A DNA stretch of 64,000 bases from Clostridiaceae bacterium. Its GTDB lineage: Bacteria; Bacillota; Clostridia; CAYPLH01; DUMO01. Shown one piece after another: positions 7,051-12,541 of the stretch. Under the pieces are notes generated by a model. It saw nothing but the letters and a program-made list of their open reading frames with translations. It was not told the origin of the DNA and did no database searches. Numbering within the stretch: the stretch's first letter is position 1; every line of letters starts with the position of its first letter. Location: NCBI GenBank assembly GCA_012839865.1, contig DUMO01000063.1, positions 1-64,000 on the forward strand. The letters run 5' to 3'. Position numbers and translations under genes: made by a program.

Positions 7051-7395
7051 TCAGCCTAATCCATTTCTTATGGAATTCAGTGCATTTAAAGCTACTTCCT
7101 TAATTTTAGGATCGTTTTCGCTGTTGTAGATTCTTCTGATATGCTCTTCCGCATTTTTGGCTCTAAGCTTTCCCAAAGACTCTATAATATTAGCACGGAC
7201 TTCTGCATCCGGATCCCTCAGATAAGTAATTAAAATGTTTGCTACATCCAGATTTTTTACATTCCCCAATGCTTTTGCCGCTTCCGCACGGTATTTTGGA
7301 TTTCCTCCATTGGTCAGAATCTTTATTAATTTATCTTTCTTGCCCTTTTCTCCCCACTTTTTGATTTTTTCAGTTTTATCTCCGAAAAACAACAT
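7051..7395 (-). CDS. Small HEAT-repeat protein
   Basis: A 114-residue soluble protein. After a charged N-terminus (MLFFGDKTEKIKKWGEKGKK) it shows about two and a half HEAT/PBS-lyase-like helical repeats: YRAEAAKALGNVKNLDVANILITYL, DPDAEVRANIIESLGKL and DPKIKEVALNALNSI. Such short alpha-solenoids are usually protein-binding scaffolds; no catalytic motif is present. An AGAAGGAG site precedes the ATG at 7395. It lies 220 nt downstream of the Mrr-like gene on the same strand and may or may not belong to that cassette. Confidence 0.75.
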   Translation of the reverse strand: MLFFGDKTEKIKKWGEKGKKDKLIKILTNGGNPKYRAEAAKALGNVKNLDVANILITYLRDPDAEVRANIIESLGKLRAKNAEEHIRRIYNSENDPKIKEVALNALNSIRNGLG

Positions 7396-7615: not shown

Positions 7616-8641
7616 TTATCGCTTGGCATATATGTTTTTGTATTCCAGCTTGATTTCGTACCGGCAAAGATTCTTCCAATCCTCTTGCGGTATTTCATCA
7701 AAGTATATACTAAATGGGCACTTTTCTTTGCTTTCCAGTTTTTGTGCAGCCTCCACACTCTTTTCATATTGGCACATTCCTGCCCTGTCAAATATTCTGA
7801 TGTTTATTGAAAGGTTTTCTACAGGTCTTTTCCCGGTGTTTAAAAGTTTCCCCTCAAAAACAATAATTTCTTTTTCATTAACCTCCTGAACCACATATTT
7901 TACATTAACTATCTGAACTTTTGTCTTGGGTGTCTTTATTATGCAATCCAGGAAAATTTTATTATTCTCGTCGTTATTATCCTCAACCAGCAACTCTCTT
8001 TCAGTTTTTTTCAACTCATTAATAAAATCATGCACCATTGGCAGAAACTTTTCAAATCCAATAAGTGTTACTCCTATTTCCCCTGATTCTTCAACAGCGT
8101 CCTTATCAAAGGATGTGCTGGAAAATAAAATAGCCTTCTCACAATGAAAATCGTTGGCAATATATCTGGCCTGCCTTACAAACTTAACTCCGACATTGCA
8201 TCCCTTGTCGGCTTTAACAGCAAAAACCGCCACCTTTATATTGCTGCGGTGCACTATAAAGTCTACTGCATCTTTTTTAATCAGGGGTACATATAATTCT
8301 TCATAACCAAAGTGCAACACCACTTTTTTCACCAGGGATTTGAATTCCAACTCTTCAAGTTCGTCTATGTTAAATTCCCTTGAATTTTTATATGCATCCC
8401 GGATTCTTCCAATAATTATGGAATCAATGTATTTGGACAGGTTCTCCCTGGACCTGGCCTGCCTGACCTCTTTGTCTATATCAAACCGGCTTCTTAAGTC
8501 ATTCAATATCCTTTCCGACTTTCTTTCAGAACAGGGCTTGCGCAGATATCTTTCAATACTTCGTTTAATGCTTCTTTCGTCCGGGTTTTCTTTTTTTAAA
8601 TACACTTCAAGCACTTTGTCTTTCAGCGTTAAAGTTTTCAT
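7616..8641 (-). CDS. Mrr-like restriction-endonuclease-fold protein
   Basis: A 341-residue protein. Residues about 95-205 follow the Mrr_cat pattern: an entry helix (LEFKSLVKKVVLHFGY), a catalytic-type Asp127 in AVDFIVHR, then a core strand ending in Lys143 (VAVFAVKADKG), and the closing block ILFSSTSFDKDAVEESGEIGV. In Mrr enzymes the Lys is usually preceded by E/Q-x; here it is A-V-K, so the active site is incomplete or unusual. The N-terminal 90 residues are helical and charged; the C-terminal 100 form a beta-rich domain (FEGKLLNTGKRPVENLSI) like FxLYD modules. Its ATG directly follows the stop of the cysteine-rich gene (TAAATG), implying translational coupling. Role: probably DNA binding or cleavage; specificity unknown. 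Confidence 0.65.
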   Translation of the reverse strand: MKTLTLKDKVLEVYLKKENPDERSIKRSIERYLRKPCSERKSERILNDLRSRFDIDKEVRQARSRENLSKYIDSIIIGRIRDAYKNSREFNIDELEELEFKSLVKKVVLHFGYEELYVPLIKKDAVDFIVHRSNIKVAVFAVKADKGCNVGVKFVRQARYIANDFHCEKAILFSSTSFDKDAVEESGEIGVTLIGFEKFLPMVHDFINELKKTERELLVEDNNDENNKIFLDCIIKTPKTKVQIVNVKYVVQEVNEKEIIVFEGKLLNTGKRPVENLSINIRIFDRAGMCQYEKSVEAAQKLESKEKCPFSIYFDEIPQEDWKNLCRYEIKLEYKNIYAKR

Positions 8642-10642
8642 TTAAATTTTACCCCTTTTAGTTATCCTGTTTTTCCTCTTAAGGTTTTCCAAAAACGATA
8701 CTTCCCGGGTGCTTAGAACAGCCCCTGAGTTATTATATACCACAAGAAGGTTTCTGAAAAAGCCTTTTGCATATAAAACTCTTATTTCCTCTGATTTGCC
8801 AAGATAAAATTTCTTATAATTTCCTAGTTCAGGTACATATTTAAAGATTGAATCAAGTTCCGGATCCTTGCCGGTTACTGGCTCAAGTTCGGAACATGTT
8901 TTACAGTAACCGTTTTTGTCTATGCAGTTGTCGCAGTAATCCTCCCCGCAAAACTTGCATTTTACAAAGGATGTACATTCACAATATTCTTTGCCGCAGC
9001 TTCGGCAATAGTTCACATGAGAGCTGCAATATACCCTTGAACATTTATTGCATGTCTTGATATGATTCGGGCAAAGCTTTTCCTTGCATACAGTACACTC
9101 TTTAATCTCATCTTCGGCAAAATTATCTTCACATACTTCACACTTCACAAGATGCCGCCCGCAAACAGCCCTGCCGCTGTAAGCCGAGTAGTTCGTATCC
9201 TCGTCACAGATAAATTCATTGCACACCTGGCACTTCTCTGTATGCTCATGGCAGAACAGCCTGCCGCAAATGCTGCACTTGCTTGCATGTTCAAGACATA
9301 CAGGATCACCACAGTTTCCGCAGTAAACAAAATGGTCCTTGCATAAACTCTCGTCACACTCTTTGCAAATTTCATAACAGTCCACACAAAGTTTTTCCCC
9401 GCAAACGGCACACTCATATATATGTGATTTACACTGCAGGGAATCGCACTTTGAGCACTTTACATAACAATCTTCGCATACTATTTCCCCACAGGTTGAG
9501 CAAACATAACTTTCACCTTCACATACATCACAAATCACTTTATTGCAGATTGAACACACTTCCATGCAGTTTCTGCAAAGAACATGCCCGTTCTCGCATA
9601 TAACAGCCCTGTCAATCTCCATTCCGCATTGGGAGCATTTGATATCAACTTTTGACAATAAAACGTCGGCTTCAACCAAAAGCTCCTTTCCGGTATGATT
9701 ATGCCTGACAATTATATCCCGGATATCCCTTTTTGCATGAAGGATATTCACACTTTTCAGGTGATAGTCGCAATTTATGGTATAGCCTCTTATTTCTCTT
9801 TCACACAGTTTAAGGGCTTCCTCCTGCATTTCCTGAAGCTGCTCCAGTGTGCTGGTGGTGTAAGTATCAACATATTCCTCTTCAAATTTGCTAATAATCG
9901 AAGTTATCTTGCCCCCAAGGACATCCTCGATGTTCTTTCTGAATACTTCCAGATGCCTGCTTACAATTTTTGAGGCAACCTTTCTCGCATTGTTGAGAAT
10001 TTTCACATAATTGCCGTTGTCAATCATTATACTTTCTTCACAATTTGCCAAATCAAGGGAGTCTATATCATTTACAAGAAGATCGTCTATGACTTCCCCG
10101 GTTTCCAAATCAATCAGAACAGGTACCGTTTTGGAAACCTTCTGACTTAAACTGTAGTCGTTGGAAATTTCGACCAGGAACATGAATAGAATCAGGTTAG
10201 CCTCTTCAGTTTTCTTAATGGTTTTTGTGCCTATAAATTCGGCATTCTCAATATTTGTATTGCAATTTTTATAGTAATGGCAATAATAGCAGCATTCATC
10301 ATGGTTCTCACATACTGTGGAGAAAGGGCATAAATCGCAGCAGCATTTTTTTTCAAGGGCGCTTTTTATGCTTCTTTCGGTGTTTTTCACCGCAACTTCC
10401 GAAAAGGCGGATTTTAAGCTGCACTCTCTGATCATTTTCTGCAGCAGCTTGCTTCCCTTGGCTATCAGGGTCATCTCTTTATTTTCAGCAGCTATGCGGG
10501 GAGAATAGGTATAAAAGACCTTTGTCCCGTCCGCAAGCAAAACTACAAAGAAATCATCATTAATTTCAAGAATCTTTCCGCCTGTTAATTTCAAATAAAT
10601 CTCAACAAACTTGTGAAGTGTGCTGTTATATATTGAATTCAT
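8642..10642 (-). CDS. Multi-CxxC zinc-module protein of unknown function
   Basis: A 666-residue soluble protein. Residues 1-330 are mostly helical/unknown and contain one compact Cys cluster at 100-127 (CCCDLC...CENHDECCYYC). Residues about 336-583 hold some 13 tandem units of roughly 20 residues with the pattern C-x2-C-x4-6-C-x2-[CH], for example ECAVCGEKLCVDCY and KCSICGRLFCHEH, resembling zinc-ribbon or B-box knuckles. The last 80 residues carry no Cys. Such arrays bind many zinc ions and usually mediate protein or nucleic-acid contacts. GGGG TTAAA precedes the ATG at 10642. It lies 45 nt downstream of the helicase gene and abuts the Mrr-like gene. No known family name was recognised. Confidence 0.7.
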   Translation of the reverse strand: MNSIYNSTLHKFVEIYLKLTGGKILEINDDFFVVLLADGTKVFYTYSPRIAAENKEMTLIAKGSKLLQKMIRECSLKSAFSEVAVKNTERSIKSALEKKCCCDLCPFSTVCENHDECCYYCHYYKNCNTNIENAEFIGTKTIKKTEEANLILFMFLVEISNDYSLSQKVSKTVPVLIDLETGEVIDDLLVNDIDSLDLANCEESIMIDNGNYVKILNNARKVASKIVSRHLEVFRKNIEDVLGGKITSIISKFEEEYVDTYTTSTLEQLQEMQEEALKLCEREIRGYTINCDYHLKSVNILHAKRDIRDIIVRHNHTGKELLVEADVLLSKVDIKCSQCGMEIDRAVICENGHVLCRNCMEVCSICNKVICDVCEGESYVCSTCGEIVCEDCYVKCSKCDSLQCKSHIYECAVCGEKLCVDCYEICKECDESLCKDHFVYCGNCGDPVCLEHASKCSICGRLFCHEHTEKCQVCNEFICDEDTNYSAYSGRAVCGRHLVKCEVCEDNFAEDEIKECTVCKEKLCPNHIKTCNKCSRVYCSSHVNYCRSCGKEYCECTSFVKCKFCGEDYCDNCIDKNGYCKTCSELEPVTGKDPELDSIFKYVPELGNYKKFYLGKSEEIRVLYAKGFFRNLLVVYNNSGAVLSTREVSFLENLKRKNRITKRGKI

Positions 10643-10687
10643 TTTAACCCCATCTCTACAAATTTCAAAATAAACAAATCTATGTCG

Positions 10688-12541
10688 CTAATCCAGAACA
10701 AGCCTGGAAAACTCCTCTCTGAGCATGCTTTGCTGTTTTTTATATTCCAGGTCTTCCCGCAACTTTTCAAATTCTTTTTCAATATCCCGTTTGTTTGTTG
10801 AACGTATTAAAATATCCATAATTGTTTCTTCTATATCGAAATCGCCGTCTTTAATTTCAGATAGAATAGCTTCAATCCCACCTATTGTCATTTTAAACAA
10901 CTCAATTTTTTCATACAGGACCTTAAGTACATAGTCATCAATAGTATCCTTCATGACAAGATTAAACACGGTGACGTCTTTCTCCTGTCCCCTTCTGTGT
11001 ACACGCCCGATTCTTTGCTCAATCTTCATAGGGTTCCAGTGAAGATCATAGTTTACTACTATACTGGCGTTTTGCAAATTCAAACCTTCCGCAGCTGAAT
11101 CGGTGGCAACTATGTATTGTATTTTGCCTTTTCTAAAATCCTCAATAAGCGCCTGCCTTTCATGACCTGTAAGCCTTCCCTCATATACACGGGCGGACAT
11201 GTAGTTTTCATTAAGGCTGTTGCAAAGCATATGTGCGGTTTCCAGCCTTAAGGTGAAGATTACCGCCTTCTCACCTGGTATGTTGTTTAAAGACTTGATA
11301 AGGTTCTCCGCTTTTGAATAGTTTCCAACCTGTTCTGCAAGTTCAATAATCGGGTCAATAAGCTCACTTTCTCCCGGATTTTTCAGCTTTCTGTTCTCAA
11401 GGCTCCTGATCAGCGCCCTTGGGCTGCTGGACAAGGACTGCTGCAAGATTATAAGTTCCTTCATCAAAAAGTAATTGCTTTTATATCCGTTTTGACCAGA
11501 ATAACCATAACCGCTCAAACTGTTAAAGTATGTTTTTTTCATATAGTTTATAACAGCATCGTATAGCTGCTTTTCAATGCTTGAGCCTTCAACCCTCAGC
11601 GAATAAATAAATCTTTCGGTAAAGGGAATTCCGCTTTCACTTCGTAAAGTCCTTACCATTACGTTTGATATTACCTTCTTGAGTTCATCCTTCATTTCCG
11701 GTTTGCACACTCTTCCGGCTTTATCCTCAAAATACTTTTTTCTAAAACTCTTCAATGTGCCAAGAAGCCCCGGATATAAAAGATCCACAAGGCTGTATAT
11801 ATCTGTAAGCCGGTTGCAGAGCGGAGTTGCCGTACTTAAGAGCATGTACCTTCTGTCAATGGAAGCTACCGCCTGTCTTCTTTTGGAGCTTGTATTAATC
11901 AAAAGATGGGCTTCATCCACTACAACCATATCCCATTGTCTTGTTGTAAACTTCTCGACATTTCTGGCAAGCTTGCTTAACGAAGTAATAATCCTGTTTT
12001 TATCAAAGTCAAAGTCATCATCTTCAGTGGTGACGAATTCTTCTCCAAACTTTTCATACATTTCATCTTTCCATTGGTTAACCAGGGCTTTAGGAGTAAT
12101 AATAAGTATGGAATGAATGTTTCCCCTTATAATGTGTTCCTTCAGTATCAGTCCTACCTCAATTGTCTTGCCAAGCCCCACCTCATCCGCAAGCAAGGCA
12201 TTGCTTGATTTGTCCTTCAATACGTTCAGGGCCACTTTCATCTGATACGGATAAGGCTCAAGCCTACCCTCCAAAAGATCCAAAGTTGATAGCTGGTCTA
12301 TTTTACCAGATTTCATCAATTCTCCTGCAAGGAAGCCTAATCTTAGCCACTCACCGTCAAGATTGACATCTTTTTCTGAAATTCTCTGATTTATGTTGTA
12401 TTCGTCAAAAAACGACTCGTGGACCGGCACAAGATCAATAAGCAATCTTGAATCGCTGCACCTTTGTTTTATTTTTATTAATTTTTCATTAGTAAACTGT
12501 GGCAGTGCATCCTGCATATATTCTGCCAGTCCTGTATTCAT
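10688..12541 (-). CDS. SNF2-family (RapA-like) DEAD/DEAH-box ATPase
   Basis: A 617-residue two-lobe superfamily 2 motor. Motif I is ADEVGLGKTIE (residues 118-128), motif Ia LIITPKALVNQW, motif II DEAH (209-212), motif III LLSTATP, motif V ATDSAAEGLNLQ and motif VI QRIGRVHRRGQ. The DEVGLGKT form is typical of the RapA/HepA branch, but the protein lacks the long extra domains of RapA (about 970 residues). Such enzymes translocate on double-stranded DNA and displace bound protein, without strand separation. GGAGG precedes ATG 12541. As the first gene of a three-gene run with a zinc-module protein and an Mrr-like protein, it probably supplies ATP-driven DNA tracking to that set. Confidence 0.88.
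   Translation of the reverse strand: MNTGLAEYMQDALPQFTNEKLIKIKQRCSDSRLLIDLVPVHESFFDEYNINQRISEKDVNLDGEWLRLGFLAGELMKSGKIDQLSTLDLLEGRLEPYPYQMKVALNVLKDKSSNALLADEVGLGKTIEVGLILKEHIIRGNIHSILIITPKALVNQWKDEMYEKFGEEFVTTEDDDFDFDKNRIITSLSKLARNVEKFTTRQWDMVVVDEAHLLINTSSKRRQAVASIDRRYMLLSTATPLCNRLTDIYSLVDLLYPGLLGTLKSFRKKYFEDKAGRVCKPEMKDELKKVISNVMVRTLRSESGIPFTERFIYSLRVEGSSIEKQLYDAVINYMKKTYFNSLSGYGYSGQNGYKSNYFLMKELIILQQSLSSSPRALIRSLENRKLKNPGESELIDPIIELAEQVGNYSKAENLIKSLNNIPGEKAVIFTLRLETAHMLCNSLNENYMSARVYEGRLTGHERQALIEDFRKGKIQYIVATDSAAEGLNLQNASIVVNYDLHWNPMKIEQRIGRVHRRGQEKDVTVFNLVMKDTIDDYVLKVLYEKIELFKMTIGGIEAILSEIKDGDFDIEETIMDILIRSTNKRDIEKEFEKLREDLEYKKQQSMLREEFSRLVLD

Follow-up and report, generated by a model that had tools for sequence, protein, structure and literature searches.

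What do three adjacent genes encoding a SNF2-type ATPase, a cysteine-rich protein and an Mrr-like protein do together, and do they form one unit at all? The genes, here called hel, zn and mrr, lie on the minus strand of a 64,000-nucleotide stretch of Clostridiaceae DNA (contig DUMO01000063.1), the whole of which is referred to as the window. An open reading frame check found all three at the coordinates assigned beforehand and bore out what had been claimed of their arrangement: they are adjacent, point in one direction and form a tight cassette, with 45 nt between hel and zn and a stop-start contact, TAAATG, between zn and mrr. Their features are as follows.

10688-12541, minus strand: hel, a SNF2-family ATPase core of 617 aa that lacks the additional domains found in single-chain SNF2 helicases
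11546..12214, minus strand: SNF2-rel_dom domain (hel residues 110-332)
10988..11314, minus strand: Helicase_C domain (hel residues 410-518)
8642-10642, minus strand: zn, 666 aa, a YqhG-like coiled-coil partner with a C-terminal zinc array
9653..10624, minus strand: N-terminal half of zn, YqhG-like and containing a coiled coil (about residues 7-330)
8873..9637, minus strand: zinc array (about residues 336-590 of zn; 15-residue period, unit C-x2-C-x4-C-x2-(H/C)-x3)
8663..8875, minus strand: small conserved C-terminal beta/alpha domain of zn, common to the haloarchaeal and L023 homologs
7616-8641, minus strand: mrr, 341 aa, with a helical N-terminus, an Mrr PD-(D/E)XK fold and a C-terminal beta-sandwich
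8036..8368, minus strand: Mrr_cat domain (mrr residues 92-202; D127 kept, (E/Q) of (E/Q)xK lost)
7640..7948, minus strand: C-terminal Ig-like beta-sandwich, FxLYD-like (mrr residues 232-334), seen in clostridial copies

The cassette has the same G+C content as its surroundings. Upstream lie a CheR gene and an open reading frame read by inspection as an IspH-RpsA fusion, and downstream lie genes for a HEAT-repeat protein, a hexapeptide protein and MurD. The further genes tested in the window serve housekeeping, as the initial annotation had supposed of the surroundings, or motility; among their products are cytidylate kinase, FapA, an SRP54-type GTPase, PEPCK and dehydroquinate synthase. The small HEAT-repeat protein (window 7051-7395, on the cassette strand) was not seen beside the cassette in related loci. 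The same genome encodes a second Mrr-domain protein elsewhere (G000:C11:6299-6616).

The SNF2 family has an established ATP-driven movement on duplex DNA. hel matches SNF2-rel_dom (E=5e-35) and Helicase_C (E=2e-26), and its DEVGLGKT, DEAH and QRIGR motifs are all intact. The top PDB match of the hel profile is E. coli RapA (E=2e-65); against the NCBIfam RapA equivalog, hel scores 143.8 bits, below the cut-off of 576. In a tree of hel sequences, the clostridial and bathyarchaeial copies form a single fully supported clade, with the haloarchaeal copies adjacent. Phage records contain no close hel, the best match having 31% identity.

For zn, a confident family match is lacking in Pfam, NCBIfam and PADLOC, and a Foldseek search returned no significant fold. 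About 51 of its 64 cysteines fall within residues 330-590, and this Cys-rich half contains 32 Cys pairs spaced exactly 15 residues apart, compared with a mean of 7.1 (maximum 16) in shuffled sequences, which identifies it as a tandem zinc array rather than a chance pattern. The array weakly resembles RING and FYVE modules, a likeness that suggests a cross-brace mode of zinc binding. Its length varies: the arrays are long in clostridial and haloarchaeal zn (8 to 35 exact units counted), and short and less regular in bathyarchaeial zn.

The third protein, mrr, matches Mrr_cat with E=4e-9 and 37 bits, above the 21-bit cut-off. Its AlphaFold model (pLDDT 80) gives local matches to AF1548 (1y88), EcoT38I and MspJI, and many of the top Foldseek matches cover the C-terminal beta-sandwich alone. 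At the level of this predicted structure, the Mrr fold is confirmed. The domain matches, the 15-residue Cys period and the structure model together substantiate the original description of the trio as a SNF2 ATPase, a zinc-module protein and an Mrr-like fold. Of the nuclease implied by that description, the fold stands and the canonical active site does not: D127 and a nearby K are present, and the E/Q is missing. Among 35 cassette Mrr sequences (34 aligned ones plus L110), the D..(E/Q)xK site is incomplete in 32 and intact in three (L032, L092 and L110), and the K position is mostly R in the bathyarchaeial copies. Gene-wide dN/dS in four bathyarchaeial pairs, a rough measure because dS is high in some of them, is 0.04-0.07 for hel, 0.10-0.15 for zn and 0.16-0.19 for mrr; the last range indicates that the eroded nuclease is held by purifying selection and is not decaying. 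The N-terminal helical regions of the Mrr proteins have no sequence similarity detectable between clades, so a single origin of the third gene is unproven. A search of plasmids with mrr gave no match.

A contig scan with hel alone recovered 26 loci, in every one of which tblastn and gene calls place zn and Mrr directly after hel in constant order; because hel was the sole query, this co-occurrence is not circular. Best-segment identity is 57-69% for the three loci from clostridial MAGs and 45-47% for the 23 from Bathyarchaeota or closely related MAGs. Two clostridial copies are damaged, L005 stopping within Mrr and L015 being frame-broken. The hel-zn junctions of related loci are mostly 4-bp overlaps. 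A contig pattern scan with zn, using 8-residue words for which zn is too divergent, had no match; loci found with the zn profile also contain the trio, many of them in genomes already found with hel. The order is likewise kept on three haloarchaeal plasmids and in two genomes of another Thermoproteota class (L092 and L110). The cassette genes alone are shared throughout the 26 loci, the flanks being common to groups of five loci at most, with one ABC-type ATPase family as the exception; within clades, bathyarchaeial cassettes have the same ordinary neighbours. Three further genes were seen beside individual copies: one of about 297 aa and no known family after Mrr on two haloarchaeal plasmids (L031:10021-10917 and L033:9968-10861), a DUF2130 protein gene 6 nt upstream of hel (L092:10974-12269) and a guanylate-cyclase-like gene overlapping the end of the intact Mrr gene (L092:6036-6758).

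Within taxa, the cassette is patchily distributed. Strong matches occur in 14 of 151 Bathyarchaeia genomes and, among 399 Bacillota genomes, in one besides that of the window (G402); the class to which G1085 belongs gives 2 among 200. The search of the window's own family and order found zn in the window genome, the sole genome there. The initial annotation had tied the idea of a common function to the three genes staying together in related genomes, and in this respect the idea survives, the trio being kept together across distant taxa. A spread across Clostridia is not seen: of the 391 genomes searched in the window's class, that of the window has zn and the other 390 are without it.

The G402 homolog of zn (L085, Bacillota) links the cassette to a pair of Bacillus proteins. 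It adjoins its SNF2 gene, aligns with the zn profile end to end and matches PF11079 (YqhG) with E=2e-11 over its N-terminal half; the N-terminal halves of zn and L085 align with an hhalign score of 44, compared with at most 19 for shuffles. At the Pfam gathering score, PF11079 has no match in the window zn or its own genome, and among the control genomes it matches in B. subtilis only. Since the window zn falls under the YqhG cut-off, the tie to YqhG is one of homology through L085, not of membership. By gene order and this profile link, hel and zn form a YqhH-YqhG-like pair, in which the gene for a short SNF2 core precedes that for a YqhG-type protein; judged by sequence, zn is such a protein with a zinc array added. 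In the G402 cassette, the third place is taken by a Helicase_C_3 protein instead of Mrr (L085:101-1708). In further Bacillota, two-gene SNF2/zn-like modules adjoin ordinary chromosomal genes (named by inspection). In B. subtilis, yqhG and yqhH lie in one chromosomal stretch (PMC6123443). YqhH has been termed HepA-like, with an RNA polymerase interaction of the group cited (PMC7385302), and ATPase and helicase activity has been reported for Bt yqhH (PMC10054049).

Arrays of the same kind occur outside the cassette. One protein (L093:7786-9384, from G919) combines a zinc ribbon, an Mrr domain with an intact D..ECK site and a zinc array, and another (L095:7409-10522, from G781) joins a HerA-like ATPase, a coiled coil and a zn-like zinc array in one chain. 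Both match the zn profile weakly and through their cysteines, but both have the 15-residue period. To judge from these fusions, the zinc array accompanies several DNA motors as well as Mrr. Separately, two-gene relatives consisting of a short SNF2 gene and a coiled-coil partner are found on cyanobacterial and haloarchaeal plasmids (L034-L043), and several haloarchaeal two-gene loci lie near DUF1156 methyltransferase and DUF499 genes.

As regards complex formation, DNA translocation, target and cellular role, we infer a DNA-translocase complex of the RapA/YqhH kind, in which zn would be the zinc-array adaptor and mrr a DNA-binding pseudo-nuclease, acting in genome maintenance or in clearing transcription roadblocks, and we give this reading a probability of about 0.48. 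The three products would form one multi-subunit complex in which hel, a SNF2 motor reduced to its ATPase core, moves on duplex DNA with ATP, and zn contributes in trans the parts that single-chain SNF2 proteins have built in. The YqhG-type N-terminal module of zn, with its coiled coil, would dock onto hel, and the array of variable length could grip a large partner, be it RNA polymerase, some other protein bound to DNA, or DNA itself. mrr would add a PD-(D/E)XK-fold DNA-binding module acting as a clamp or sensor, its catalysis presumably lost in most lineages, including that of the window; in a few archaeal cassettes, Mrr may still cut. The most likely job would be like that of RapA/HepA (YqhH), clearing DNA under stress of RNA polymerase that has stalled or of other roadblocks. 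We favour this maintenance reading over defence because of the YqhH/RapA kinship, the selected pseudo-nuclease, the ordinary chromosomal settings and neighbours poor in defence genes. Counting against it are the three cassettes with an intact nuclease site, the indirectness of the YqhG tie, which runs through L085, and the dissimilarity of zn to the RapA C-terminal region. The distribution is also patchy and some copies are plasmid-borne, a pattern not usual among core transcription factors.

Defence, the role to which the initial annotation had inclined, found no support in the ordinary chromosomal flanks, the YqhG/YqhH kinship or a nuclease that is mostly eroded yet kept by selection, and we regard it as less likely than maintenance, though a serious rival and ahead of the other alternatives. 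As an anti-phage or anti-plasmid system, the SNF2 motor would scan DNA, the zinc array would recognise a foreign signature, and Mrr would cut foreign DNA or, where inactive, block it. Such a role would suit the patchy distribution with plasmid copies, the intact sites of L032, L092 and L110, and the motor-Mrr pairing known from Zorya ZorD, whose C-terminus the cassette Mrr domains match. The fusions that join the array with an intact Mrr in L093 and with a HerA-like motor in L095 would then reflect the mix-and-match habit of conflict systems, and the related haloarchaeal two-gene loci do lie near DUF1156 methyltransferases and DUF499 proteins. Against this, PADLOC found one AbiE pair and otherwise generic matches among 107 neighbours of 21 cassettes, the bathyarchaeial copies retain their ordinary neighbours within clades, and the loss of the nuclease in most copies is joined by strong purifying selection with no gene-wide arms-race signal. 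Repair or remodelling, named as the alternative at the outset, fits at least as well as defence. In its specific form of a DNA repair machine, in which motor and zinc adaptor would remodel DNA at a lesion or a broken end and the Mrr fold would process or hold the ends on the model of archaeal HerA-NurA, we consider it improbable: the HerA-like motor of L095 is fused to the same kind of array and the Bt yqhH knockout is UV-sensitive (PMC10054049), but most Mrr copies have lost catalysis and no repair genes consistently adjoin the cassette. That the three are chance neighbours without a common function is hardly credible, for although the Mrr N-terminal regions differ between clades and the third gene was possibly acquired more than once, the order is constant in every locus found with hel, in two domains of life and amid changing flanks.

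The cassette ties the poorly understood Bacillus YqhH/YqhG pair to a three-gene unit common to Clostridia and several archaeal lineages, and it provides a concrete partner set for a SNF2 ATPase with no assigned role. A zinc array of regular 15-residue period is found beside or fused to several DNA motors, and a single gene order in which some Mrr subunits are intact and others eroded offers a testable case of a nuclease turned structural subunit. We tentatively propose a distinct cross-domain three-subunit machine. Its SNF2 motor would be split, its adaptor a zinc 'solenoid' whose 15-residue repeats number from a few to dozens and which also occurs in fusions with a HerA-like motor and with an intact Mrr nuclease, and its third subunit a nuclease that more than once became a pseudo-nuclease kept by selection.

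The trio is named in no family library searched, and no description of it was found in the open-licence literature; the view that the combination matches no catalogued system thus holds, both in the family libraries and in the cut-off tests. The DrmD, BrxH, DpdE and ZorD models align to hel through the SNF2 core only, well under their curated cut-offs. The likeness to DISARM noted earlier extends to this core, where hel matches DrmD models at E=1e-72, and to nothing beyond it. DISARM itself was rejected: hel scores 245 bits (cut-off 950) and 208.5 bits (cut-off 610) against DrmD-type models, the cassette contains no DrmA, DrmB, DrmC or methyltransferase, and zn and mrr match no PADLOC model. 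The neighbours checked for DISARM partners encode the HEAT protein, CheR, the hexapeptide protein and MurD. Dpd was rejected at 207 bits for DpdE (cut-off 500) with its partner genes absent from the cassette, as was BREX, whose BrxHI/BrxHII models match the SNF2 core only and whose partner genes are likewise absent from the cassette.

Zorya type I ZorD is like the cassette in joining a SNF2 motor to an Mrr-like domain, and archaeal cassette Mrr domains match its C-terminal part with E down to 1.6e-19. The cassette differs in having separate polypeptides and a zinc-array partner, and the identification was rejected at 98.7 bits against a cut-off of 1500, with SNF2 and Mrr on separate genes. The genes directly adjoining the window cassette encode the HEAT protein and CheR, with no ZorA or ZorB among them. 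In the haloarchaeal short SNF2 and coiled-coil pairs, the partner directly follows the SNF2 gene and aligns with the N-terminal half of zn; unlike zn, it ends after one zinc-site-like motif, there is no Mrr gene, and the pairs occupy a branch of the hel tree separate from the cassette.

The Bacillus YqhH-YqhG pair shares with the cassette a short SNF2 core encoded near a YqhG-type partner, but no third Mrr gene has been reported for it and the YqhG model is without a zinc array. RapA/HepA of E. coli is the closest structural-database relative of the hel profile, and zn has no sequence similarity to the RapA C-terminal region. RapA has a degenerate REase-like domain (PMC12839542) and is a single chain, whereas the cassette carries its Mrr fold as a separate gene.
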